This document shows positions 11,929 to 63,854 of a stretch of DNA of 64,000 nt, piece after piece. The translations under genes were made by a program, and so were the position numbers. Below the pieces are notes generated by a model. It made no database searches and was not told the DNA's origin. It was given only the letters and a program-made list of their open reading frames with translations. Source of the DNA: a virus; IMG/VR virus record IMGVR_UViG_3300027365_000011, positions 19,478 to 83,477 of that record. One strand, 5' to 3'. Each line of letters begins with the position of its first letter. Position 1 is the stretch's first letter.

Positions 11929-12370
11929 CGATTTGACCTGGAAAAGCGCCAAGCTACTGCCGCGCTTCTACGACAGCATTGCTCGCTCACTTATCGGCGC
12001 GGCGCCCTGCCGGCCCATCGTCAAGTTCAAGGCGGGGCATGGCTATGTGGACGAAAGCGTTGACCCGCCCGTGTTCCTCGAGGTGCCGGACGACCTGATC
12101 GACGTGCCCAACGTCTTCTATGAAGGCACCCCCGAGCTAGCGCACTCGGACGGTCGCATCCTGGCCCGCTGCCATATTCCCAAGGGCAGCGTGACCGACC
12201 CTCGCAAGTACAGCATGACGGGGCTGTACGACGACCAGGGCAGCCTGGTGGCTGTCTGCCTCGATCTTCCCGACTGGCTGGTGCCCAGCGACTGGCACAC
12301 CACGTTCGCCTACATCGACTTCCCCAACGTGGGGGAAAACCCGCCCCAGGTACTTGAGGATGTCGTGTAA
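11921..12370 (+). CDS. Tail-end protein, possible fibre-associated, unknown
   Basis: The 149-residue protein overlaps the previous gene by 8 bases. It has repeated aromatic, Pro and Asp patterns (VDESVDPPVFLEVPDDLIDV; YIDFPNVGENPPQVLEDVV) and no enzyme motif. The place, behind the baseplate genes and before a small beta-rich protein, suggests a fibre attachment protein. Its stop overlaps the next ATG by one base (TAATG). Confidence 0.55.
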   Translation: MADDLTWKSAKLLPRFYDSIARSLIGAAPCRPIVKFKAGHGYVDESVDPPVFLEVPDDLIDVPNVFYEGTPELAHSDGRILARCHIPKGSVTDPRKYSMTGLYDDQGSLVAVCLDLPDWLVPSDWHTTFAYIDFPNVGENPPQVLEDVV

Positions 12371-12894
12371 TGGCTATCCAGGCTGACATTTCCTGGCGAG
12401 AGCAGTATGTCTCGCACGCGCTCAACCGGAAGTTCACCGGCATCATCCCCATCGGGGTCTACCAGGGGTTCGCCTGCACGGTCGACGCTGCCGGCGCTGT
12501 CACCGTGGGCAACGACGGTGTGGCCGGCGTGGCCGTTGCCGAAGTGAACGGCTATTCGGTGACAGTCCGCATGGATGCCCCCGAAACCGTACAGACGGCC
12601 CCGGCTGCGCCCTATGTCGTGCTGGTGCCCTACTACGCCATCGGCGTTGCCACCCGCGTCGACCTGCAAGCCGTCGCCACTCCGGAAAGCCACCACCTGA
12701 TTCTCACGAAAGCGGTCCAGGGCAGCGATGGCGCGTGGCAACTGGACGACAGCGAGCGCCAGGTTGCCACCTGGCGAACCGCCGACAGCGAGACGCTGGC
12801 GCAGATGGCCTCGGCCCAGGTAGAGACGATGGAGCGCCAGCTTGCCCTCCAGGAGCGCGTCTATGCGCTCGAACAAGCCAGTACGACAGGATAG
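12370..12894 (+). CDS. Tail-end beta-rich protein with C-terminal helix, unknown
   Basis: The 174-residue product has an N-terminal beta-rich half (GVYQGFACTVDAAGAVTVGN) and ends in a long amphipathic helix (SETLAQMASAQVETMERQLA) likely to form a trimeric or dimeric coiled coil. This is the design of short fibre or tail-tip proteins. It is the last recognisable tail gene before the dar-type block. No family is identified. Confidence 0.55.
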   Translation: MAIQADISWREQYVSHALNRKFTGIIPIGVYQGFACTVDAAGAVTVGNDGVAGVAVAEVNGYSVTVRMDAPETVQTAPAAPYVVLVPYYAIGVATRVDLQAVATPESHHLILTKAVQGSDGAWQLDDSERQVATWRTADSETLAQMASAQVETMERQLALQERVYALEQASTTG

Positions 12895-12899
12895 TCACC

Positions 12900-13451
12900 A
12901 TGCGACAGAACTATGCGACATTCGACTTTGCCAACTTCGACGAGAAGGGCTTGTCGGGCGTCAAGGAGGCGTTCGAGCGCGCCGGCGTCACGGTCATCGA
13001 CCTCGAGGCCAGCAACCGCTCCCGCCGCATGTCCGGCTTCGCCACCAAGTCCGCCACGTTCTATTTCGAGGATGGCCAGACCATCACCCTGCGCATCAAG
13101 GGCGACGGCGACGTGTTCCAGGTGAAGCTCAACAGCCGCGTCGTGCCGATCCGCAACGTCCACAGCATGAAAGAGGCCGTGGGCGAGATGGCCCGCTACC
13201 TGCAGGCCAATGCGCCGGCGTGGAAGAAGGCCCAGCGGCGCAAGCAGCAGCGCGCCAAGGTTGACGAAAAGGACATGAAGGCCAAGCCGCTGCCCCGCGC
13301 CAAGAAGATCGAGGCGCTGGAAGCCGATGTGGCCGAGCTGGATTCGTCGCTGTCCGACCTCGCCAGCGAGAAGGACGACCTTACCAAGCAGCTCGATGAG
13401 CGCCAGCAGACCATCCAGACCCTGGAGCAGCAGATCCAGGACGCCGCATAA
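12900..13451 (+). CDS. DarA N-domain-like protein with C-terminal coiled coil
   Basis: ATG 12900 gives 183 residues. The first 105 follow the pattern of the DarA N-terminal domain of the next gene: ATFYFEDGQTITLRIKGDGD matches VTFTFSDGQTVSILFHSPGS there, and both continue into a conserved helix. Residues 110-183 form a Lys-rich linker and a coiled coil (LASEKDDLTKQLDERQQTIQ). In P1, DarA is an internal head protein needed for anti-restriction; this is probably a duplicated, shortened version. An AAGGAG site in its stop region serves the next gene. Confidence 0.6.
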   Translation: MRQNYATFDFANFDEKGLSGVKEAFERAGVTVIDLEASNRSRRMSGFATKSATFYFEDGQTITLRIKGDGDVFQVKLNSRVVPIRNVHSMKEAVGEMARYLQANAPAWKKAQRRKQQRAKVDEKDMKAKPLPRAKKIEALEADVAELDSSLSDLASEKDDLTKQLDERQQTIQTLEQQIQDAA

Positions 13452-13461
13452 GGAGCCCCCA

Positions 13462-15951
13462 ATGACCCCGATCAACGATGGCATCGCCATCCGCGACGTG
13501 GTGCTGCCCGCCCAGGGCTTCACCGATGCCCAGCTACGCTCGGCCTTCTACGACCTGACCGCCAGCCCCGAGCAAGCGGACCTGCTGCTCGAGGACTGTA
13601 CCCCGGAAGATGCCGACGCCATTCTCAATCCCGGCCAGGATCTCGTCACCGAGGCCGTGTCGACGGTCAAGAACCGCATCGACCGCACCATGTCGGCCGT
13701 CGCGCGCGTGCTCAAGCGCTACGCCAGCGATGACGTGACGCCCTATGACATGCCCAGCATCGGCCCCGATCGCAAGAACAGCCTGTTCGCCTACAAGACG
13801 GTGACATTCACGTTCAGCGACGGGCAAACGGTCTCGATCCTGTTCCACTCCCCGGGCAGCGACCCGATGAAGCTGCGCGCCGACGACACCCTGATCGCCT
13901 ATCGCTGGATGCTCAACAAGCGCGACATCACCGCCACGGTTTCCCCGGAAGGCGGCCGCGACATCGACATCAACACCATGGGCAAGCGGATCATGCAGTT
14001 GGTGTCGGCGAACAGCGAGAAGTTCAAGGCCAACAACGCCAAGCGCCAGGAACAGCAGGCGAAGCTGGACGACCTGCAGAGCCAGCAGGCCGAGAAAAGC
14101 CAGCGCGTCGATGCGCTGACCCAGGAGAACGCCGACCTGACGAAGCAGGTCGAGGCGGCCGACGCTCGCATCGAGAAGCTGCGCGACAAGCTCGCCGACC
14201 TGGGCGAAGGCAGCCGCGACGGTAGCGGTGCCGGGGCGGGTAGCGGGCGGGCCACGCGCGAGGCTGAACAGTCGGCCAACAGTCCTGAGCAGGTCGACAC
14301 CGTGGACGGCTGGCAAGTCAGCACCGGGCCGTTTGTCGACTTCACACTGACCGCGCAATCCGCGCTGGGCGTCGACTCCACGCTAGTCAACGTCACGTCG
14401 ACCGACGGGACCGCCATCGGGACCATCGACCGCTCGGACCTCGACGCCTTCATCCGCGGCGATGTCGCCGTTTTCACGCCGGTCGATAACTGGGAAGCGA
14501 AGTTCTCGCAGTCGCTGAAAGAAAAGATGGGGCTGGCCGAGCCGTCAGGCGGCGAACCCACCCCGCCGTCCGATCTCGCCGCGCTTGACCAGCGGCTGGC
14601 GCGCGACATCGCCGGCAGCATTGGCATGGTCATGCGGATTGACAACGGGGAGGAGCCGGGCATGAACCGCTCCGCGTTCACGTCCAGCATCGCCGGCAAG
14701 ATCAAGACTCAGGCCCGGAACGGCAACACCGAAATCGTCGATGCCATCCTGCTGAAAGTCGCCAAGGCCTCGCTCGAGCATTCCAAGCCGGTGCTGGCCG
14801 CCCGCAACGCCGCCTGGAAGGCCAACGGCCACGACATGGATTACTACCTGGAGATGGCCAAGGGCCAGGCTGGCGGCGGCGAAGGCACCACATGGGGCGA
14901 TGAGAAAACCAGTGGTAGCGAATCCGGCGAGACAACGGACCCCAACATCGGTCGCGAATGGGGCTCTGAGTGGGGGCGTCAGCGCATTGTCGAGCGCGAA
15001 CAGCACCCGACTGGCGATATGTACCTGGTCGAGACCGTTGATGGCGAGAAGATTGGCCAGCAGCGGAAGTACCCCGTCGAAGGTATCGACGAGACGATTC
15101 GCCGCCAGGAATACAAGCTGACCGACGCCTATCAGGATGAGCAGCGCCAAGCCGAGGAAGATCGACGCCTCCGCGAAGAACGCGATCAGCGCCAGGCCGC
15201 CGAGCGTGACGCACAGAACGCGGAAATCCAGGCGTTTGCCGACTCTCGCGGCATGTCCACCCCCGGCGCAGCCAAGGCGCGCGATGCGCTCCTGGTCAAG
15301 ATGAGATTCGACGGCTCTGTCATGACTCGGAAGAAAGCCATTGAAGGCGTGGTGGCTGATGGCGGCACGATCACCGGCGAAGGCGCGGAGCGACGCCTGA
15401 TGATGGGTGATGGCTCGTTCTACGAGCAAAAGACCATCACCAAGACAGGTATGGACTATGCCGAATACCTGATTTCTCAGCGCACCACCGGCGAGGAAAC
15501 CACCGTGACCGACACCGACCGCGGCTCATCGAAGGCGCGCCGAGAGGCTGCGAAAGAAACCATTGCGCCCTGGAGAAAAGCGATTGAGTCGGGCGTCTCC
15601 CCCTCTGCTGACGAAGCGGCGGCTTGGGCCGAGTTTCAGCGGGCCTACCCTATCGAAGCCGCCGGAGTGAAAAACGAGCTTTCCGAGGCCATCGGCTGGG
15701 AGAGGTTTGTAGAGCTTGCCGAAGGTGGCAAGGAAGGCGGCGAGAGCGGCACCGAAACCGACCGCATCCGGGGAGAACTGCAGTCGTTGATCGACAGCGA
15801 GACGGATACCGGCGTGTTCGACCAGCGCCTGGATGAACTGGCCGACGAGGCGGAGAAGGCTGACGCCATGGACGAGCTGGACGACGTTCTGAACGCCGCC
15901 GCTGACCGCCTGACCGAGCTGCTGAACCAGGAGGCCGCCAATGTCGCTTGA
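13462..15951 (+). CDS. DarA-like anti-restriction / internal head protein
   Basis: The ATG at 13462 sits behind AAGGAG, giving 829 residues. Residues about 1-200 match the 'defence against restriction A' N-terminal domain from memory (VTFTFSDGQTVSILFHSPGS; AYRWMLNKRDITATVSPEGG; INTMGKRIMQLVSANSEKF). A coiled coil follows (about 195-255), then polar, repeat-poor sequence with many Glu and Arg. In phage P1, DarA is carried in the head and protects incoming DNA from type I restriction. The neighbouring DdrB- and DarB-like genes support the call. The long C-terminal part has no recognised domain. Confidence 0.75.
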   Translation: MTPINDGIAIRDVVLPAQGFTDAQLRSAFYDLTASPEQADLLLEDCTPEDADAILNPGQDLVTEAVSTVKNRIDRTMSAVARVLKRYASDDVTPYDMPSIGPDRKNSLFAYKTVTFTFSDGQTVSILFHSPGSDPMKLRADDTLIAYRWMLNKRDITATVSPEGGRDIDINTMGKRIMQLVSANSEKFKANNAKRQEQQAKLDDLQSQQAEKSQRVDALTQENADLTKQVEAADARIEKLRDKLADLGEGSRDGSGAGAGSGRATREAEQSANSPEQVDTVDGWQVSTGPFVDFTLTAQSALGVDSTLVNVTSTDGTAIGTIDRSDLDAFIRGDVAVFTPVDNWEAKFSQSLKEKMGLAEPSGGEPTPPSDLAALDQRLARDIAGSIGMVMRIDNGEEPGMNRSAFTSSIAGKIKTQARNGNTEIVDAILLKVAKASLEHSKPVLAARNAAWKANGHDMDYYLEMAKGQAGGGEGTTWGDEKTSGSESGETTDPNIGREWGSEWGRQRIVEREQHPTGDMYLVETVDGEKIGQQRKYPVEGIDETIRRQEYKLTDAYQDEQRQAEEDRRLREERDQRQAAERDAQNAEIQAFADSRGMSTPGAAKARDALLVKMRFDGSVMTRKKAIEGVVADGGTITGEGAERRLMMGDGSFYEQKTITKTGMDYAEYLISQRTTGEETTVTDTDRGSSKARREAAKETIAPWRKAIESGVSPSADEAAAWAEFQRAYPIEAAGVKNELSEAIGWERFVELAEGGKEGGESGTETDRIRGELQSLIDSETDTGVFDQRLDELADEAEKADAMDELDDVLNAAADRLTELLNQEAANVA

Positions 15952-22174: not shown

Positions 22175-25100
22175 ATGACGCAACAGATTCTCGAGCGGGC
22201 CACCCAGGGGCCGCTCGACGCCGCGCTGGGCTCGGCTCGGCAGGCTTCGACCTTCGGCCAGCTTATCGGCGCTCTCTCCACCCTGGCCGACGCGCTCGGC
22301 GACACCGATACCGCCGACGCCCTGCAGGGGCAGATGCAGTACGGGCTGCGCAAGCGCGGCCAGCAGGCCCGCAAGGCCATCAATGCCAAGACCCGCGAGA
22401 TACTGGCGCGGGTCGACGGCGACCCCGACGCCCTGAGCGACGCCGACCGCGACGTGTTGCGCCAGTACAGCGGCCGCGGCGGCATCGCCGATGACAACAG
22501 CCTCTCCGAATACTACACGCCGCAGCCGATCGCCGAAGGCGTGTGGGATGCGCTCAAGGCCAACGGCTTCGAGAACGGTAATGTCCTGGAGCCATCCACC
22601 GGCGCCGGCGTGTTCCTCGCCACCAAGCCCGCCGGCACGAAGGTCAGCGGCGCGGAGATCGACCCCACCAGCTCCAGCGTGGCCGCCCTGCTCCACCCCG
22701 ACGACGACGTGAGCAATCAGTCCTTCGAGCAACTGTGCGCCACCGCCAAGGACAACACCTATGACAGCGTGGTCGGCAACGTGCCGTTCGGGGATGCCCG
22801 GGGCAAGTGGGCGAAGTTCGACCCCGAGTACCAGGACATCAAGGAGATGGAGCGTTATTTTATAACGCGCGCCATCGACAAGGTGCGTTTCGGCGGCCTG
22901 CTGTGCCTGATCGTGCCGCCCAACATCGTCAGCAAGCGCTCCAAGACCTTCACCCGCTGGCGCCGCGACATTTCCCGCAAGGCCGAGTTCCTGGGCGCCC
23001 ACAAGCTGCCCAGCGGCACCTTCGGCGGGGCCAACGGCAACGGCACCGACACCGTGGTCGACGTGCTGGTGATGCGCAAGCACAGCCGCGAGCTGACCAA
23101 CCGGATTCCCGACCTGACCACCGACGCCCTGACCGGGGCCAACGTCTACTGGGACCAGTTCATCGAGGGCCGCTGGTTCGAGCGTGACGGCAAGCGCTTC
23201 GTGCATGGCGAGATCGTGGAGGGCTTCCGCACCCAGGTGAAGTCCGAGATCGACAACGCCGGGCTCAAGCGCCTGCTGGCGCGCAAGTTCGACAGCCGCA
23301 TCGACTTCGCCGCCCTGGACAGCGCCGAGACGGTGACGCGCAACTACCAGGACGGCGACCGCCGGGTCATCGGGATGCAGATGCACGAGTTGGCCGGCGG
23401 CGAATGGGTCAAGGTCGACGCCGCCGACGGCGTGTATCGTGACGGCGCCCTCGATGCCGAGCGCTACGGTGCGGCCAGCCAGGAAGAACTGACCGGCATC
23501 CTGGGCGGCGAGCCGGCCGGGGCGCTGGCGCTGTCCCACCGTCAGGCGGCCAATGCCGTCAACGGGCGCTTCGCGGACGCGGCCAGCGGCGCCATCCGCA
23601 ACGCCGTGCGCCTGGCCGACCAGGCCGACGAGGGCGTGCGCGAGCGGGTCTACCGGGCGGCACTGGTCGGCAACGAGGTCAACCGCTACGCCCGCGCGGT
23701 CTCGGAAACCGGCCAGGCCGACGACGCCGCCCGCGAGCGCCTGCAACGGCTCGTCACCGCCGAGGTCGAGCAGTACGGCAACCCGTCACGCAGCACCGCG
23801 CTGCGCCAGGTGAGCGGCCCCGGCGCCAGCGATGTCGGCGCCTTCATGCGCTCAGTGCGCCGCGATGGCGGCTTCTCCGACCTGCTGACCGGCAAGCGCG
23901 ACGGCTCCCGCGGCGAGGCGGTCGACACCACGGACCCGGCGGACGTGCTGCGCTTCCTGGCCGCCAGCCAGGGCAACGGCGCCGTCACCCTGGACGACGT
24001 GAAGGCGATGTACAGCGGCGACCGGGCGCTGACCATCGAGTCGCTGGCCGAAAGCGACGCCATCGCGGTCACGGCCGATGGCCACCTCCAGCCCATGGAG
24101 CATTTCGCCAGCGGCAACGTGGTGAGCAAGATCGCCCGCCTGCGCGAAGCCCTCGCCGGCGAGCTCTCCCCGGCCCTGGCCGACAAGTTCCGCGGCCAGA
24201 TTGACGAGATGAACCGCCGGCGCACCTTCACCGATGTCGATGACATCGACTTCTCGCTGCGCGGCAAGTGGTTCGATCGCGAGCTGGTGGCGGAATTTCT
24301 CAACGCGCGCGGCTATGACTTCGTGCGCTATGACGCCACCCGGGGGCAGTTCACCAACGGCCGCTTCGGCACCAAGCCCGAGCGCTTCAACAAGCAACTG
24401 CTCAACTTCCTGAACGGCCAGACCGTGCGCTCCAAGGACGCTCAGGCGACCGCCGAGTACAAGCAACAGATCCGCGACCTGGCCGACGAGTTCGGCACCT
24501 GGATGCGCCAGCGCGACGACATCGATGAGCTGGTCGCCCGCTACAACGACGCCTTCAACGATCATGTGCCGGTGGAATACGACGGCTCCGACCTGGGGCT
24601 CGAGAACGTCGCCGACTGGATCACCCCGCACGACTACCAGGCCGCCGGGGTGCGCCGCCTGAGCGACGAAGGCCGCGGCGTGCTGGCCTTCGACGTGGGG
24701 CTGGGTAAAGCTCAGCCCATGGATGCCAAGATTCTTACGCCGGATGGCTGGCGCCGCATGGGCGATATTGCTGCGGGTGACATGGTGATGGCCGCTGACG
24801 GAACACCGACACGGGTTACCGGCGTGTTTCCCCAGGGCGAAAAGGAAATCTTCGAGGTCGTTTTCAGCGACGGGGCTGTGACGCGCTGCTGTGACGAGCA
24901 CCTGTGGCTGACGCAGACCGAGAAGGACCGCAAGAAGGAACGCTATTCTCGCCGCAAGGGGCTGGAGCGCTCCGAGCCCGGCACCGTCAAGCCCCTCAGC
25001 GAGATTCGCGACACGCTGGTCTACCAGACACAGAAGAACCACCGCATTCCCATGGCGGCACCGGCTCAGATGCCTGAGCGAGACGTGCTCATCGACCCCT

Positions 25101-28100
25101 ATGTCATGGGCGTGCTGATCGGGGATGGCGCCCTTTCGCACACTGCCATCACCTTCACGCCCGGGGATGACGAGATTGCCGAGCGAGTCAGCCGCATCAT
25201 TGCCAACGCCGGCACTCCGGTCGAGGTCCGCCAGCGTGCCAAGCAAGCAGGCAAGGCCACCACCTACGGCATTTCCCGTCTCAGCAACACGATACCCAAC
25301 GTCTATCACGACGAGCTGCAGCGACTGGCGCTCATGGGGTCCATGTCGCATGAGAAGTTCATCCCCGACGAGTACAAACTGGGGTCGATTGAGCAGCGCA
25401 CCGAGCTGCTGCGCGGCCTCATGGATACGGACGGCTATGTCAGCAAGGACGGGGTGACGGTACAGTTTTCCAGCACCAGCGCCGCCCTCGCAGGCGATGT
25501 GCGGGAGCTGGCGCAGAGTCTTGGTGGCATCGCGTGGACCAGCAGCAGGGAGCCGACCTACACCCACAATGGCGAGAAGCGCCAAGGGCGGACCTCCTAC
25601 ACCGTGTCAATGCGCCTTCCGGCTGCGCTCAACCCGTTCTGGCTGGCCCGCAAGGCAGAGCGCGTTCGCCCCAGGACCAAGTACCAGCCGGTGCGCTACA
25701 TCACCGAGGTCAATCCGGTCGGGCGCGAACTGGCGCAGTGCATCAGCGTTGAGCACTCCGAGCACCTGTATGTGACCGACGACTATATCGTCACTCACAA
25801 CACGCTCTCCGCCCTGTCGCTGGCCCAGTACAACGCACAGAAGGGGCGCGCCAAGCGGACCTGCATCACCGTGCCCAAGGCGGTGCTGGAAAACTGGTAT
25901 CACGAGTCTCGCCAGTTCCATAAGTCCATGGGCCATGTGCTGTTCGTCGGCTTCACGCCCAAGATGAAGGGCGGCGAGGTCGAGCGCGAGCCGGTGCTGG
26001 ATGCCGAGGGCAACCCCAAGGTCGGCCGCAACGGCGAGGTGCAGTACCGCGACGTGCTCCTCGAGGACAGCGCCGAGACCATCTTCGAGAAGATGAACGA
26101 CATCCCGCAGACCAGCAAGACGCTGGTGGTCATGTCGCGGGAGCGCTTCGGCATGATTCCCATGCGCCCGGAGTCCCGCGAGGCCTATGCCGACAAGATG
26201 GTCAGCAAGAACCTGCTGCGCGACAGCGAGGCCGCCAGTCTCGCCCAGGGCGAGGACGTGAAGCTGGGCCGCGGCGGGTCGTATGACGAGGCGAAGCAGA
26301 CCGAGCGCTACCAGCAGAAGTTCAACGACGACGGCACCCGCAAGCAGGACGCCTACCCGTTCTTCGAGGACATGGGCTTCGATTCGGTCATCGTCGACGA
26401 GGGCCACGAGTACAAGAACACCTATCAGGCCGGCGGCGACACCCAGCGCCTGGCCTACCTGCCGACGCCGCAGCCGTCCAAGCGCGCGCTCGACATGGCA
26501 ATGAAGATGGACCACCTGCGCGGCCGCAACCAGGGCGCGGGGCCGGTCATGCTCACGGCCACCCCGGTGACGAACAGCCCGGTGGAGGTCTACAACATGC
26601 TCAGTCACATCGTGCCGTCCGAGCAGTTCGAGCAGATGGGGATCAGCAACGTCGATGACTTCGTGGACACCTTCTGCGAAGTCACCGAGGTTCAGCGCAC
26701 CAAGCTGTCCGGGGAGGTCGTCACCGAGGAAGGCGTGGCGGGCTTCAAGAACCTCGACGGGCTGCGCTCGATCTTCCACCGCTATACCAACATGAAGTCC
26801 GCCCAGGACGTGAACGACGAGGCCAACAGCCTCAAGATTCCCGACCACACCGAAGTTCACGCCTCCGTCGACATGACCGCCGAGCAGGCGCGGATCTATG
26901 AGCAGCTTCGCGAGGAAGCCGACAATGCCAACCAGGAGGTGGTGAAGCAGGCCGAGGATGGCAGCGTCACGCTCGAGGATGCCCGCCCGGTGTTCGCGAT
27001 CATCCGCGACATGGACCGCATCACCACGGACATGGACCTGTACCTGCACACCATGACCTTCACCCTGCCCGCCGGGCAGCGCGAGGCCGTGGACCGGCTG
27101 GTGGCCGACCTCCCCGCGCGCATCAATCGCCGCCTGCGCGACGAGGAAACCGGCGAGATGGAGACCGTGCCGGTCGAGCTGGACGAGACCCTGAGCCTGA
27201 CGGAAGACGGCGACACCCTGACGCTGGTGGTGCATGAACTCTACGAGTCCGAGGTGGTCAAGCGGCTCAAGAAGGTCGGCATCGATGAGAAGGACGTGGC
27301 CCACCCGGTCATGCCCAAGTACGCCAAGCTGCTGGAGAACCTGCGCAGCGACCACGAGAACGGCGGCAAGCAGATCGTGTTCACGGAGGAAAAGAGCCAG
27401 CACGACAAGCTCAAGCGCATCATCGTCCACCACCTGCCGATCGAGGCCAAGGAAATCGGCATCATCAACGCCGACACCGCCGGCGGCGACAAGCTCGAGA
27501 AGATCAGCAGCGACTACAACACCGGCAAGGTGCGCATCGTGCTCGCCAACCGCAAGGCGGAAGTGGGCGTGAACCTGCAGAAAGGCACAACGGCGATTCA
27601 CCACCTCACCCTGCCCTGGACCCCGGCGAGCATCCAGCAGCGCAACGGCCGCGGCGTGCGCCAGGGCAACACGGTGTCGAACGTCAACGTCATCTACTAC
27701 ATGGGCAAGGGCAGCTTCGACGGCTACCGCCTCGACATGCTCAAGCGCAAGGCCAACTGGATCAACGACCTGTTCTTCGGCGACGCGGCCCGCGCCGACA
27801 ACGCCAACGCCGGCAGCGACGAGGACGTGTCGGTGATGCTGGCGGCCAACCCCGAGGAACAGCGCCGCCGCATCGCCGAGGCCCGCGAACAGAAGGAACA
27901 GCAGGCCCGCGAGCGCGCCAACAAGCGCGCCACCATCGACCTGACCAACTACCAGAAGCACAAGGCGTTCCTGGCCGGGTACGACGCGGCCGAGCAACGC
28001 GCCGTGGACAACGCCCGCGAGCGCGGCCGCAGCGAGGACGACGCCCGCGCGCGGATGCAGAAGAAGCGCGACAAGGCCCAGGGCGAGCTGCGCCAGATCG

Positions 28101-29539
28101 AGGGCCGCCTGACCACCGCCCAGGAGAAGGGGCGCATCGACATCGACGCCAAGCGGCTGATGCAGGGCGGCGAGTACCTGACCACGCTCGACGGCCAGGT
28201 GATTGAAGCCGGTCAGTGTTACGAGACGCCCCGCGGGATGCTGATGAAGGTCAGCGCCATCGATACCGCCTCGGGTTCTGTCACGCTCAAGTCGATCGAC
28301 ATGCCCAACGTGCCGGCCTCCCGGGAGGCGGCGAACAAGCTGGGCGGCTACAAGCGCGTCGAGATGAGCGAGGAAGCCATCGACCAGCGCATCCTGAGCC
28401 GTGGCGGCTGGCGCTACCATGAGCTGGCCAACTACCGCGTCGATGCCGCCTTCCTCCGCGAGAACGCCGGCCGACTGGTGCGCCAGTGTGTCGATCGCCG
28501 CCTGCTGATGGTCGATGACGACGGCGAGCTGCACGCCATGGAGCTGGGCGACGCCGAAAAGGCCGCCGAGGCCGGCATGGGCATCGCCAAGCCCCGCCCG
28601 AGCGATGCCGAATGGCACCGCCGCGCCAGCGCCGCACTGTTCGCGGGCCACCGCCAGGCCCCCAGCTTCGGGCGCTCGGCCATCGATCGCTTCGGCCGCG
28701 CCCTGCTGGGTGATGACTGGCTCAAGGCGGCCACCGACGCCTTCGGCAACCCGCCCAGTGATGCCGATGTGGCGGCCACGTTCGGCGAGATCGCCAGCCA
28801 GGAATGGCAGGCCTACCAGGACAACAAGCTGGACGTGCTGGCCGACATCATGGAGCGCGTGCAGGGCGACGCCGGCGCCAGCATCATCGACAGCGAGATC
28901 CAGCGCGCCGTGTCTCGGGCCACCGCCAACTACAGCCGCTACCGGACCAAGCACCGCCTGAGCAGTGCCGCCCGTCAGTCGCTGGTCGAGGCCGGCTATG
29001 ACGTGACCGACGCCACGCTGGAGGACGCCGCCCGGTCCCATGCCGAGCAGCTCGACCAGCGGGTCGAGGGCGACGCCCAGACCGTGGCCGACAACATCAA
29101 GGCGATGCGCGACAAGCGGGCCGAACAGGCCGCCGCCGACCGCGAGGCCGCCGCGGCCGAGGGCGCACAGATGGCCGCCGATGCGGTCCCCGAGACGCTG
29201 CGAGAGCGGCTGGACGAGCTGGGCATCGAGGTCAAGGTGAACACCCAGCCGATGAGCTGGAAGCCCAAGGGCGGCGGCAAGCGCCCGGCGAAGGGCATGT
29301 CGATCGAATCCGAGGCCGGATCGCGGCTGATGCTGTTCGACCCCCAGGGCTACGGCGGCCCCTTGTCCCAGGCGCTTTCGGGACGCAACAATCCGTTACA
29401 GAAGCGATACAATGCGGTCTGGACGATCTTTGAACCCGGCACCGTTCGCATGAACCTGATCCCCGGCAAGGGCGATCTGTGGTGGCACATGCCGCTGGAC
29501 GGGCTCGACTTCGACGCACTGATGGAGGCCTTCGAGTGA
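22175..29539 (+). CDS. DarB-like giant methyltransferase-helicase with intein
   Basis: The 2454-residue precursor becomes about 2090 residues after intein removal, close to P1 DarB. Residues about 110-310 form an adenine-type methyltransferase: VLEPSTGAGVFLA is motif I and NVPFG (202-206) is the motif IV tetrapeptide. The helicase begins near 830 with HDYQAAGVRRLSDEGRG and Walker A GLGK/T, which the intein (846-1209) interrupts. VDEGHEYKN is motif II; LTATPVTNSP is motif III; QQRNGRGVRQGN is motif VI. A long charged C-terminal region follows. P1 DarB is packaged and protects DNA from type I restriction. The start follows AAGGGG; the stop overlaps the next GTG start. Confidence 0.85.
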   Translation: MTQQILERATQGPLDAALGSARQASTFGQLIGALSTLADALGDTDTADALQGQMQYGLRKRGQQARKAINAKTREILARVDGDPDALSDADRDVLRQYSGRGGIADDNSLSEYYTPQPIAEGVWDALKANGFENGNVLEPSTGAGVFLATKPAGTKVSGAEIDPTSSSVAALLHPDDDVSNQSFEQLCATAKDNTYDSVVGNVPFGDARGKWAKFDPEYQDIKEMERYFITRAIDKVRFGGLLCLIVPPNIVSKRSKTFTRWRRDISRKAEFLGAHKLPSGTFGGANGNGTDTVVDVLVMRKHSRELTNRIPDLTTDALTGANVYWDQFIEGRWFERDGKRFVHGEIVEGFRTQVKSEIDNAGLKRLLARKFDSRIDFAALDSAETVTRNYQDGDRRVIGMQMHELAGGEWVKVDAADGVYRDGALDAERYGAASQEELTGILGGEPAGALALSHRQAANAVNGRFADAASGAIRNAVRLADQADEGVRERVYRAALVGNEVNRYARAVSETGQADDAARERLQRLVTAEVEQYGNPSRSTALRQVSGPGASDVGAFMRSVRRDGGFSDLLTGKRDGSRGEAVDTTDPADVLRFLAASQGNGAVTLDDVKAMYSGDRALTIESLAESDAIAVTADGHLQPMEHFASGNVVSKIARLREALAGELSPALADKFRGQIDEMNRRRTFTDVDDIDFSLRGKWFDRELVAEFLNARGYDFVRYDATRGQFTNGRFGTKPERFNKQLLNFLNGQTVRSKDAQATAEYKQQIRDLADEFGTWMRQRDDIDELVARYNDAFNDHVPVEYDGSDLGLENVADWITPHDYQAAGVRRLSDEGRGVLAFDVGLGKAQPMDAKILTPDGWRRMGDIAAGDMVMAADGTPTRVTGVFPQGEKEIFEVVFSDGAVTRCCDEHLWLTQTEKDRKKERYSRRKGLERSEPGTVKPLSEIRDTLVYQTQKNHRIPMAAPAQMPERDVLIDPYVMGVLIGDGALSHTAITFTPGDDEIAERVSRIIANAGTPVEVRQRAKQAGKATTYGISRLSNTIPNVYHDELQRLALMGSMSHEKFIPDEYKLGSIEQRTELLRGLMDTDGYVSKDGVTVQFSSTSAALAGDVRELAQSLGGIAWTSSREPTYTHNGEKRQGRTSYTVSMRLPAALNPFWLARKAERVRPRTKYQPVRYITEVNPVGRELAQCISVEHSEHLYVTDDYIVTHNTLSALSLAQYNAQKGRAKRTCITVPKAVLENWYHESRQFHKSMGHVLFVGFTPKMKGGEVEREPVLDAEGNPKVGRNGEVQYRDVLLEDSAETIFEKMNDIPQTSKTLVVMSRERFGMIPMRPESREAYADKMVSKNLLRDSEAASLAQGEDVKLGRGGSYDEAKQTERYQQKFNDDGTRKQDAYPFFEDMGFDSVIVDEGHEYKNTYQAGGDTQRLAYLPTPQPSKRALDMAMKMDHLRGRNQGAGPVMLTATPVTNSPVEVYNMLSHIVPSEQFEQMGISNVDDFVDTFCEVTEVQRTKLSGEVVTEEGVAGFKNLDGLRSIFHRYTNMKSAQDVNDEANSLKIPDHTEVHASVDMTAEQARIYEQLREEADNANQEVVKQAEDGSVTLEDARPVFAIIRDMDRITTDMDLYLHTMTFTLPAGQREAVDRLVADLPARINRRLRDEETGEMETVPVELDETLSLTEDGDTLTLVVHELYESEVVKRLKKVGIDEKDVAHPVMPKYAKLLENLRSDHENGGKQIVFTEEKSQHDKLKRIIVHHLPIEAKEIGIINADTAGGDKLEKISSDYNTGKVRIVLANRKAEVGVNLQKGTTAIHHLTLPWTPASIQQRNGRGVRQGNTVSNVNVIYYMGKGSFDGYRLDMLKRKANWINDLFFGDAARADNANAGSDEDVSVMLAANPEEQRRRIAEAREQKEQQARERANKRATIDLTNYQKHKAFLAGYDAAEQRAVDNARERGRSEDDARARMQKKRDKAQGELRQIEGRLTTAQEKGRIDIDAKRLMQGGEYLTTLDGQVIEAGQCYETPRGMLMKVSAIDTASGSVTLKSIDMPNVPASREAANKLGGYKRVEMSEEAIDQRILSRGGWRYHELANYRVDAAFLRENAGRLVRQCVDRRLLMVDDDGELHAMELGDAEKAAEAGMGIAKPRPSDAEWHRRASAALFAGHRQAPSFGRSAIDRFGRALLGDDWLKAATDAFGNPPSDADVAATFGEIASQEWQAYQDNKLDVLADIMERVQGDAGASIIDSEIQRAVSRATANYSRYRTKHRLSSAARQSLVEAGYDVTDATLEDAARSHAEQLDQRVEGDAQTVADNIKAMRDKRAEQAAADREAAAAEGAQMAADAVPETLRERLDELGIEVKVNTQPMSWKPKGGGKRPAKGMSIESEAGSRLMLFDPQGYGGPLSQALSGRNNPLQKRYNAVWTIFEPGTVRMNLIPGKGDLWWHMPLDGLDFDALMEAFE
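24710..25801 (+). other. Class 3 (WCT) intein with LAGLIDADG endonuclease
   Basis: The insert is residues 846-1209 (364 residues), placed between Lys and Thr of Walker A (GLGK|T). It begins AQPMDAKILTPDGWRRMGDI, with Ala where ordinary inteins have Cys or Ser, and ends YIVTHN before Thr. It has the class 3 triad: Trp911 in CCDEHLW (block B), Cys1189 in AQCISV (block F) and Thr1210 at +1. In class 3 inteins the block F Cys starts splicing. VMGVLIGDGA and LLRGLMDTDGYV are the two LAGLIDADG motifs, so homing may be active. Helicase function depends on splicing, because the ATP-binding loop is split. Confidence 0.88.
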
Positions 29540-59499: not shown

Positions 59500-59592
59500 A
59501 GTAGGGGTAGCATCCCCGTGGGCGGCTAGGGTAGCTCCCGAAAGGCCGGACTTCGCACCCGGCTTGCCGCCCACCTTCCTGCCCGTGCGAGC
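59500..59592 (+). ncRNA. Probable C4-type antisense RNA
   Basis: The 59504-59574 segment is highly structured: GGGG/CCCC hairpin (59504-59517), a 9-bp closing stem GTGGGCGGC (59518-59526) with GCCGCCCAC (59566-59574), and an inner GCCGG/CCGGC hairpin with an ACTTCGCAC loop (59545-59563). The core AGCTCCCGAAAGGCCGGACT resembles, from memory, the C4 antisense RNA family found upstream of phage antirepressor genes. In P1 and P7, C4 blocks translation of the antirepressor. A Rha-family antirepressor starts 35 bases downstream. A covariance search is needed. Confidence 0.65.
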
Positions 59593-62413: not shown

Positions 62414-62688
62414 CCACCGTGTTGATCCACCACGACCCCGAGCGCTTCGCCCAGGAGCTGGCCGTGCTCACCAGCAAGGGCAAGGTGCTCGACTACATCG
62501 ACGTGGTGAGCCGTGACGGCCGCCCTGGCGAGCTGCTGGCCGCGGTACGCAGCTACGCCCATGACGACAACTGGTACAGCAACGGCAAGGTCTACCGGAC
62601 TTACCAGCACGCCTTTGCCGCCATTGGTGCCGCCATCGACCGCGCGAACCCGGACCATGCCCCGCTCAACGACCGCTGGGACGCCTGA
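62410..62688 (+). CDS. Small early protein, unknown
   Basis: ATG 62410 gives 92 residues (VLIHHDPERFAQELAVLTSK; AAVRSYAHDDNWYSNGKVYR). It is a compact alpha/beta protein at the end of the operon. No family is assigned. Confidence 0.55.
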   Translation: MTTVLIHHDPERFAQELAVLTSKGKVLDYIDVVSRDGRPGELLAAVRSYAHDDNWYSNGKVYRTYQHAFAAIGAAIDRANPDHAPLNDRWDA

Positions 62689-62727
62689 CTCCCCATCCCC
62701 TTCCCGAGCCCGGCCATCGCGCCGGGC

Positions 62728-62742
62728 TTACTTTTCAGGAAA
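62728..62742. promoter_or_regulatory. Family-1-like operator
   Basis: TTACTT-TTC-AGGAAA differs from consensus by one base in the right arm. Confidence 0.45.
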
Positions 62743-62761
62743 CCGATATACGCGCCCGGTG

Positions 62762-62776
62762 TTGCTTTTGGGGTAA
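62762..62776. promoter_or_regulatory. Family-1-like operator
   Basis: TTGCTT-TTG-GGGTAA is a weaker copy 34 bases from the previous site. A half-site GATTACCC follows at 62778-62785. Confidence 0.45.
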
Positions 62777-62789
62777 CGATTACCCATAA

Positions 62790-62975
62790 TCAGCCCCGCT
62801 CGCCACACGGCGGGCATTCGACTATCAATCCATACAGGTTGCCGACGGTCGAAAAAACGGGCGCGGGTCGCAGCGCGTAATCTGCGGCACCAGGCCAGGG
62901 CAAGAGCTGAATGATCTCGAGCCCCGCGTAAGGTCGCCGGACGCTGTAACCGGCCGCTTTCCCATCGGGGCGCAT
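62790..62975 (-). CDS. Possible small protein (weak)
   Basis: The 61-residue frame (LEIIQLLPWPGAADYALRPA; ending VECPPCGERG) has plausible composition, including a C-terminal CxxC, but no clear ribosome site. It lies between operators and the hairpin. It may be a chance frame. Confidence 0.25.
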   Translation of the reverse strand: MRPDGKAAGYSVRRPYAGLEIIQLLPWPGAADYALRPAPVFSTVGNLYGLIVECPPCGERG

Positions 62976-62982
62976 CCGGTGG

Positions 62983-63056
62983 GCATCGGGAAGGGTTCGT
63001 GGTCCTGCGGGTGGTCACGGCAAAGGCAGGACAGGGCCTCGAGCCCTTCCCGATGC
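62983..63056 (+). ncRNA. Long two-tier hairpin next to the tRNA-like element
   Basis: A perfect 13-bp stem, GCATCGGGAAGGG (62983-62995) with CCCTTCCCGATGC (63044-63056), encloses a second perfect 7-bp stem, GTCCTGC (63002-63008) with GCAGGAC (63026-63032). The 3' arm overlaps the first three bases of the tRNA-like acceptor. There is no T run, so it is not a simple terminator. It may be a small RNA, a processing signal, or a DNA site. Confidence 0.55.
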
Positions 63057-63125
63057 GGCGTAGCTCAACGGTCAGAGCCTGTGCTTGAAGGCGCGATGGT
63101 TGCCGGTTCGAGTCCGGCCGCCGCA
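63054..63125 (+). tRNA. tRNA-like element, anticodon uncertain
   Basis: Acceptor TGCGGCG/CGCCGCA (7 bp, perfect), D arm GCTC/GAGC with GG in the loop, and T arm GCCGG/CCGGC with TTCGAGT are canonical, and total length is 72. The anticodon arm is not: in standard register TGTGC and CGCGA do not pair. Shifted by one base, TGTGC pairs with GCGCG and leaves a 6-base loop TTGAAG. The anticodon could be GAA or TGA. CCA is not encoded. It may be a degenerate or unusual tRNA. Confidence 0.55.
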
Positions 63126-63162
63126 TTCCCCATCTCTCTCCCCACGACGCAAAGGATTCCGC

Positions 63163-63603
63163 ATGTTCGGTCTGTTCAACAAGCGCATGAAGAAAGCCCA
63201 GCAGAACCTCAAGAAAGTCGAGAACCGCGACCTCATGGAAGCGATCGTGGGCGGCTGCCTGCTGATTGCCGCGGCCGATGGCGAGATCGAGAAGGAAGAA
63301 ACCGACAAGCTCGACCAGCTCCTGCGCTCCAACCCGCGGCTCCAGGGCTTCGGCAACGAGATCAGCCAGACTATCCAGCGCTTCCGTGACCAGCTCGACG
63401 CCGGCTTCCAGGTTGGCCGCCTGCATATCCTCCGCGAGCTGCAGGACATCGCCGACGATCGCGCGCACGCCGAGGAAGTGCTGGTGAACATGATTACGAT
63501 CGCTGGCGCGGATGGCGAGTTCGAGGATGATGAAGTCGCCGTCATCAAGGAAGTCGCCGGCACCCTGGGCCTCAACGCCAGCGACTACGGCCTGCCGGCA
63601 TGA
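63163..63603 (+). CDS. TerB-like protein
   Basis: The 146-residue protein has two related acidic helical units, LMEAIVGGCLLIAAADGEIE and LVNMITIAGADGEFEDDEVA, each with an A(A/G)ADGE metal-binding motif, as in TerB/tellurite-resistance family proteins. TerB-type domains occur in phages and stress systems and bind metals at the membrane. The next gene encodes a short membrane protein and overlaps by 4 bases, so they may work together. No other ter genes are near. Confidence 0.85.
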   Translation: MFGLFNKRMKKAQQNLKKVENRDLMEAIVGGCLLIAAADGEIEKEETDKLDQLLRSNPRLQGFGNEISQTIQRFRDQLDAGFQVGRLHILRELQDIADDRAHAEEVLVNMITIAGADGEFEDDEVAVIKEVAGTLGLNASDYGLPA

Positions 63604-63755
63604 TCGACCGGCTCAAGCGTCTCAGCAGCAAGGCCCGGCGTTACACCATCGCCGGGTCCGCCCTGGGCATCATCGTCCTGCCGTCCTTCGTCCTGGACGC
63701 GGGCCTGTCGGCGATCATCCTCGCCCTGACCCTGCTCGGCAACGACGACCGCTAG
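63600..63755 (+). CDS. Short membrane protein paired with TerB-like gene
   Basis: ATG 63600 overlaps the TerB-like stop and gives 51 residues: a basic start (MIDRLKRLSSKARR) and one or two membrane segments (YTIAGSALGIIVLPSF; LSAIILALTLLG). A membrane anchor for the TerB-like protein is plausible. A terminator follows. Confidence 0.65.
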   Translation: MIDRLKRLSSKARRYTIAGSALGIIVLPSFVLDAGLSAIILALTLLGNDDR

Positions 63756-63820: not shown

Positions 63821-63837
63821 CCTCTCAGGTAAGCTGA

Positions 63838-63854
63838 TTACCTATAAGGTACAA
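63838..63854 (+). promoter_or_regulatory. Family-1 operator with -10 for the last gene
   Basis: TTACCT-ATA-AGGTAC overlaps TACAAT, a good -10 hexamer (63850-63855). A half-site CAGGTAA lies upstream at 63826-63832. Confidence 0.6.

Follow-up and report, generated by a model that had tools for sequence, protein, structure and literature searches.

The window analysed here is 64 kb long and comprises bases 19478–83477 of an 83,477-base virus record, reaching the end of that record. From its sequence the phage is P1-like; its tail sheath protein is 33% identical to P1 gp22 and 44% identical to Vibrio/Alteromonas plasmid-borne relatives, and a DarA_N domain is present among the phage proteins. 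The gene of interest, referred to here as tciA, encodes a 146-residue protein of the TerB family (Pfam TerB, E 2.6e-17) that matches phrog_632 (tellurite resistance), and shares 66% amino acid identity with P1 TciA and 87–88% with copies in Halomonas caseinilytica. The small membrane protein gene that follows is tciB-like by its place and size class, as in P1 and D6 tciB (Table 1). Upstream of tciA and on the same strand is an untranslated gap of 474 nt (62689–63162), and the hairpin and tRNA-like element described below sit within it, bounded by a stop codon at 62688 and by the tciA start at 63163, so that a coding reading of this stretch was rejected. A putative promoter is placed in the gap by eye, although an automatic promoter scan lists nothing at the same position, and it is a guess backed mainly by the operator-like palindrome within its spacer. 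Sites of the form GGTAA-N2-6-TTACC occur only twice in the 83-kb record, where 0.01 are expected in the window, and both are close to these genes. Because the candidate promoter and one palindrome are upstream and the other palindrome lies just after tciB, the tciA–tciB pair is apparently separately controlled, and looks like an accessory unit.

Table 1. Features of the tciA leader and its surroundings, in window coordinates unless a locus is named.
Feature	Position	Strand	Remarks
Putative weak sigma-70-like promoter	62762–62790	+	TTGCTT - 17 nt - CATAAT; assigned by eye
Operator-like palindrome	62772–62784	none	GGTAACGATTACC; inside promoter spacer
Leader helix H1	62962–62982	+	8 bp; from minimum-energy fold; ends exactly at H2 start
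Two-tier hairpin H2	62983–63056	+	outer stem 13 bp, inner stem 7 bp
GATGC strand	63052–63056	+	partners GCATC 62983–62987 upstream (H2) or GCAT 63123–63126 downstream
tRNA-like element	63054–63126	+	Rfam tRNA and ARAGORN; no encoded CCA
Acceptor stem	63054–63060/63119–63125		7/7 pairs
D stem	63063–63066/63075–63078		4/4 pairs
Anticodon stem	63080–63084/63091–63095		loop 63085–63090 (6 nt)
T stem	63102–63106/63114–63118		5/5 pairs
tciA/terB-like gene	63163–63603	+	146 aa; tellurite/colicin-resistance type
tciB-like gene	63600–63755	+	small membrane protein; ATGA overlap with tciA; frame read from sequence
Second operator-like palindrome	63828–63842	none	GGTAAGCTGATTACC; downstream of tciA–tciB unit
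Pseudomonas-type terB hairpin	about 15–75 nt upstream of terB		L142–L173 and L219
Extra copies of that hairpin, e.g.	L142 3603–3661 and 4044–4100; L144 2689–2748; L168 2471–2530		

Elsewhere in the window, an int-alpA RNA (RF02996, 42.1 bits) is located at 59519–59587, flanked by the genes of a serine recombinase and of a Rha-like regulator. A 2454-residue methylase-helicase (22175–29539), DarB-like by its Eco57I and SNF2/Helicase_C domains, contains mid-way a LAGLIDADG/Hom_end domain that is probably an intein. Outside the window, locus L224 (G000:C1:11393–14240) contains a reverse transcriptase gene (13047–14240) and a 115-nt repeat whose copies, at 12272–12386 and 13001–13115, are 88% identical. 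The first copy overlaps the 3′-terminal part of a gene that matches Lcl_C (lectin-like) weakly, and the arrangement resembles that of a diversity-generating retroelement, here within a P1-like phage.

The hairpin H2 is built in two tiers. The preliminary description of this DNA had reported a perfect 13-bp stem enclosing a perfect 7-bp stem, and both are found: 13 of 13 outer pairs (62983–62995 with 63044–63056) are Watson-Crick, and the inner stem (63002–63008 with 63026–63032) makes 7 of 7. H2 ranks first among the inverted repeats of the window. Perfect stems of at least 13 bp within 80 nt number two in the window, compared to an average of 0.09 over 100 dinucleotide-shuffled sequences, and with an inner stem of at least 7 bp there is one in the window and none in the 100 shuffles. 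The H2 sequence is present as a single copy in the 83-kb record. It is not a common phage repeat, as its pattern found only 14 unrelated matches in 2.9 million viral contigs, all without a tRNA; and with no T run after the hairpin it is not an intrinsic terminator. The only known RNA family that Rfam gives for this stretch is tRNA, at the neighbouring element; the window has no match to STnc100 (RF02076) or YrlA. We note separately that an unrelated phage hairpin (L140, 182–261) has identical GCATCGGGA/TCCCGATGC arms, extended outwards by 10 further pairs, among whose bases is an AGGAGG directly 5′ of a start codon.

The tRNA-like element is the sole tRNA of the 83-kb record, and scores 45.7 bits against RF00005 (cut-off 29). 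Its acceptor, D and T arms are ideal, as had been described, and the core residues U8, A14, G18–G19 and A21 and a TTCRA loop can be read from the sequence. The anticodon arm (UGUGC/GCGCG) forms five pairs, two of them G-U, closing a 6-nt loop, UUGAAG, whereas by eye the normal 5+7+5 register leaves a single pair; the earlier remark that this arm pairs only out of register is thus correct. The arm is 16 nt long rather than 17, and the alternative is a 4-bp stem with an 8-nt loop. Because the loop has 6 nt, or 8 nt with the shorter stem, the element should be unable to decode normally. The score, the three arms and the core are accordingly those of RF00005, and the in-register 5-bp anticodon stem with its 7-nt loop is missing. 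ARAGORN names the element tRNA-??? with a two-base anticodon ‘ga’, giving neither an amino acid nor a full anticodon. TTCC follows the 3′ end. No close parent tRNA emerged, the best tRNA matches being to generic T arms or at 73–81%.

Were the 4-bp stem and 8-nt loop (CUUGAAGG) used, the element could be a working, unorthodox tRNA that reads a four-base or UGA-containing codon as a frameshift or opal suppressor. Anticodon loops of 8 nt are known from frameshift suppressors, and this loop resembles the CUUGAAA of Ser(UGA)-type tRNAs in phage D6 and in L179 (see below). Such decoding is nonetheless very unlikely: C31-G39 would close the loop to 6 nt, the short variable arm means that this is not a Ser or Sec tRNA, the discriminator U together with U1-A72 does not correspond to any of the usual acceptor identities known, and no gene is shown to need it. 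Integrases often use tRNA genes, and a former attachment site had also been suggested. An origin as the attachment site of an integrative element we consider most improbable, since the tRNA is full-length and inside the operon leader of a P1-like phage, and no tyrosine integrase is found among the proteins scanned, which are part of the gene set. In the one Halomonas genome with a close tciA, which may not be the host's, DNA comparison gives no significant match to H2 or to the tRNA-like element; this also speaks against an attachment site, and in that genome the hairpin is not the common host repeat that the preliminary description had considered.

The hairpin and the tRNA-like element overlap at 63054–63056, as previously noted, these being the last three bases of the former and the first three of the latter. 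On paper, a full cloverleaf and a full hairpin would be mutually exclusive. The calculated energies are −61.5 kcal/mol for the full hairpin with a 4-bp acceptor and −59.9 kcal/mol for the full cloverleaf with a 10-bp hairpin, a difference of 1.6 kcal/mol. In the fold of lowest overall energy the hairpin is complete and there is no canonical cloverleaf; for the isolated tRNA the cloverleaf is 1.5 kcal/mol worse than the minimum-energy fold. The competition for these bases that had been proposed is thus borne out on paper, with near-equal energies and with relatives that use the GATGC strand twice (see below), and the processing switch that had been suggested is plausible.

The closest TerB relatives found (86–88% identity) are encoded by loci L039–L041 in viral contigs and by the same prophage copies in a Halomonas caseinilytica genome (L109 and L110); a close tciA is present in 1 of 275 Halomonadaceae genomes. 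No relatives were obtained from viral contigs through the upstream 106-residue protein or the tail sheath. The L109 and L110 leaders are similar to that of the window in the span, arm sequence and place of the large hairpin, which extends over 73 nt from CATCGGGA to TCCCGATGC in all three, and in the 8-bp helix directly 5′ of it. Two pairs of the hairpin differ on both sides in a compensatory manner: 62992/63047 is A-U in the window and U-A in L109/L110, and 62994/63045 is G-C in the window and A-U or G-U in L109/L110. The sequence of the hairpin interior is unlike that of the window, and the distance from the hairpin to the start codon is 68 nt shorter. ARAGORN finds no tRNA in L109 or L110, and the hairpin is thus kept in leaders that lack the tRNA.

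At the place of the tRNA, L109/L110 have instead a mini-hairpin, GATGC-ATCC-GCATC, where L039 has GATGC-AGGC-GCATC and the window GATGC-[tRNA core]-GCATT. The GATGC strand of L109/L110 can pair with either an upstream CATC or the downstream GCATC, and since these relatives have no tRNA, the double use of this strand is not peculiar to the tRNA. It appears, as far as sequence comparison goes, that the tRNA core sits in the loop of this mini-hairpin and that the shared strand is older than the tRNA; the outer acceptor pairs would therefore be leader sequence. The simplest account, for which the three short matches are moderate evidence, is that the tRNA core took the place of a loop of four bases, or else that the mini-hairpin is what a deletion left behind.

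tRNAs recur in tciA/terB leaders. P1 has tRNA-Asn and tRNA-Thr upstream of tciA, and D6 has both together with an odd Ser/Sec-like UGA tRNA, 268–354 nt before tciA. As in the window, these tRNAs accompany a long, untranslated, hairpin-rich leader 5′ of a tciA homologue. There are two differences: the Asn and Thr tRNAs of P1 and D6 are intact and lie about 0.8–1.1 kb upstream, whereas the one defective tRNA of the window is 37 nt before the start; and the P1 and D6 hairpins match STnc100 weakly, whereas the window hairpin has no match. In both phages a series of long hairpins precedes tciA (L113, 2575–3370, in P1; L114, 2690–3370, in D6), some of which enclose T-arm-like loops (AGGGTTCGAATCCCT, GGGTTCATATCCC), with alternative CACAAC/GTTGTG pairings. 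L179 comes from a contig of 60 kb whose only three tRNAs are in the terB leader. One of them (2284–2370) is tRNA-like with an anticodon arm GCGGT-GAAA-ACCGT and a 4-nt loop, 3 nt shorter than that of its neighbour, a Ser(UGA) tRNA (2406–2493) with the normal arm GCGGT-CTTGAAA-ACCGC. Among 37 viral loci picked by T-arm pattern, 1 of 140 tRNA calls was unassignable. Two cases of a faulty anticodon arm among the few tRNAs of terB leaders are suggestive, although this was noticed afterwards.

The main rival to a retained, functional element is a simple tRNA pseudogene: a tRNA carried as cargo at the tciA locus would have lost one anticodon-loop base, simplest from a GAA, Phe-type loop UUGAANG, and would now be decaying without function. 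We regard this as quite possible: tRNAs are ordinary cargo at this locus, a single missing base accounts for the whole abnormality, and ARAGORN is unable to assign the element. However, the other arms and the core contacts are all perfect, which is unexpected for a long-decaying gene, and the second terB leader, in L179, has a different anticodon-loop defect. An intact core with a non-decoding anticodon arm also fits the tRNA mimic that had been suggested, in the form of a decoy that would either occupy enzymes acting on tRNAs or withstand them (anticodon nucleases, colicin-type RNases or tRNA-modifying enzymes) beside a gene of a tellurite/colicin-tolerance family. The fold is intact and the cleavage loop altered, as also in the 4-nt GAAA loop of L179 beside its normal Ser(UGA) neighbour, and for phage tRNAs it has been proposed that mutations in the anticodon loop serve to escape the tRNA nucleases of the host (PMC10264068), with changes likewise confined to the anticodon arm. 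The cases published there are, however, substitutions in tRNAs that still decode, and the passages found make no mention of a shortened loop, whereas the window element has a shortened loop and should not decode. No nuclease or target emerged here, and a decoy is unlikely.

We favour, with a probability of about 0.45, the reading in which a non-decoding phage tRNA has been kept as part of the structured tciA leader, and possibly as a processing signal in it. Perfect acceptor, D and T arms together with a faulty anticodon arm suggest selection for the fold rather than for decoding. When a transcript contains a tRNA fold, RNase P normally cuts its 5′ end and a 3′ nuclease the other. The stretch would be the 3′ part of a long untranslated leader of the tciA–tciB operon in a P1-related phage, with the hairpin as an inherited leader helix and with a small conserved GATGC/GCAT helix, directly ahead of the gene, whose loop accommodates the tRNA core. 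Through the tRNA fold the leader transcript would gain a processing site of the tRNA type, with cuts by RNase P at 63053/63054 and by a 3′ tRNA nuclease near 63126. The tciA message so released would begin with a short 5′ end of little structure, and the upstream fragment would be capped at its 3′ end by the hairpin. Formation of the cloverleaf would take the last three pairs from the hairpin, so that the two could exclude each other. We infer transcription as one unit, the processing, the switch and any effect on tciA. Several points count against this reading. First, neither for the tRNA in isolation nor for the entire leader is the minimum-energy fold a cloverleaf. Secondly, the same tRNA is found in none of the relatives identified. 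Thirdly, the L109/L110 hairpin has an interior of unlike sequence. Fourthly, an otherwise useful tRNA that had recently lost a single base would have the same appearance. A broader proposal, that phage tciA/terB leaders repeatedly recruit non-decoding tRNA folds, either for processing or sensing in cis against an older hairpin or as decoys in trans, is rather unlikely.

The bacterial YrlA RNAs are Y RNAs with a tRNA-like domain, and similarly join a tRNA-like module to a long helix, although the window element has no YrlA match in Rfam. A parallel in mechanism to the processing proposed here is a tRNA-like fold that directs RNase P cutting of a longer RNA, as in the mascRNA and menRNA 3′ processing signals of human MALAT1 and MENβ (PMC11693755); these are eukaryotic and unrelated, and the likeness is one of mechanism only. 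The new detail is that a non-decoding tRNA is nested within a conserved helix of the leader, in the known neighbourhood of P1 tciA. Should the element function without decoding, bacterial phages would offer an instance of a tRNA fold employed within the leader of a messenger, and the tRNAs next to P1 tciA, long unexplained, would be linked to the control or protection of that operon; none of the papers found describes how this accessory gene is controlled. If instead it is only a tRNA in decay, the observation is unremarkable, although the conserved hairpin would remain the mark of a structured leader, that of an accessory gene which is widespread.

Many Pseudomonas-type phage contigs also have a 60-nt two-tier hairpin right before terB. 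In an alignment of 22 sequences, 8 of its 11 pairs change on both sides with all cells paired, and slid controls collapse. At several loci one, two or three additional copies lie no more than a few kilobases away. The hairpin has no Rfam match at E 0.5, and the one genome checked does not contain it as a host repeat; it looks like an undescribed, dispersed cis RNA element. A covariance model of it built in this analysis, R1, does not match 62983–63056 with filters off, so that kinship with H2 is not supported; the two hairpins may be considered analogous in form and place. Finally, we note that CTCTTTAAC, the core of rRNA boxA antitermination sites, is absent from the leaders of the window and L110 and is present in seven leaders (L142, L151, L158, L171, L176, L039 and L109). 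This boxA-like motif lies between the promoter and the structured leader of terB/tciA, which suggests antitermination of the untranslated leader.
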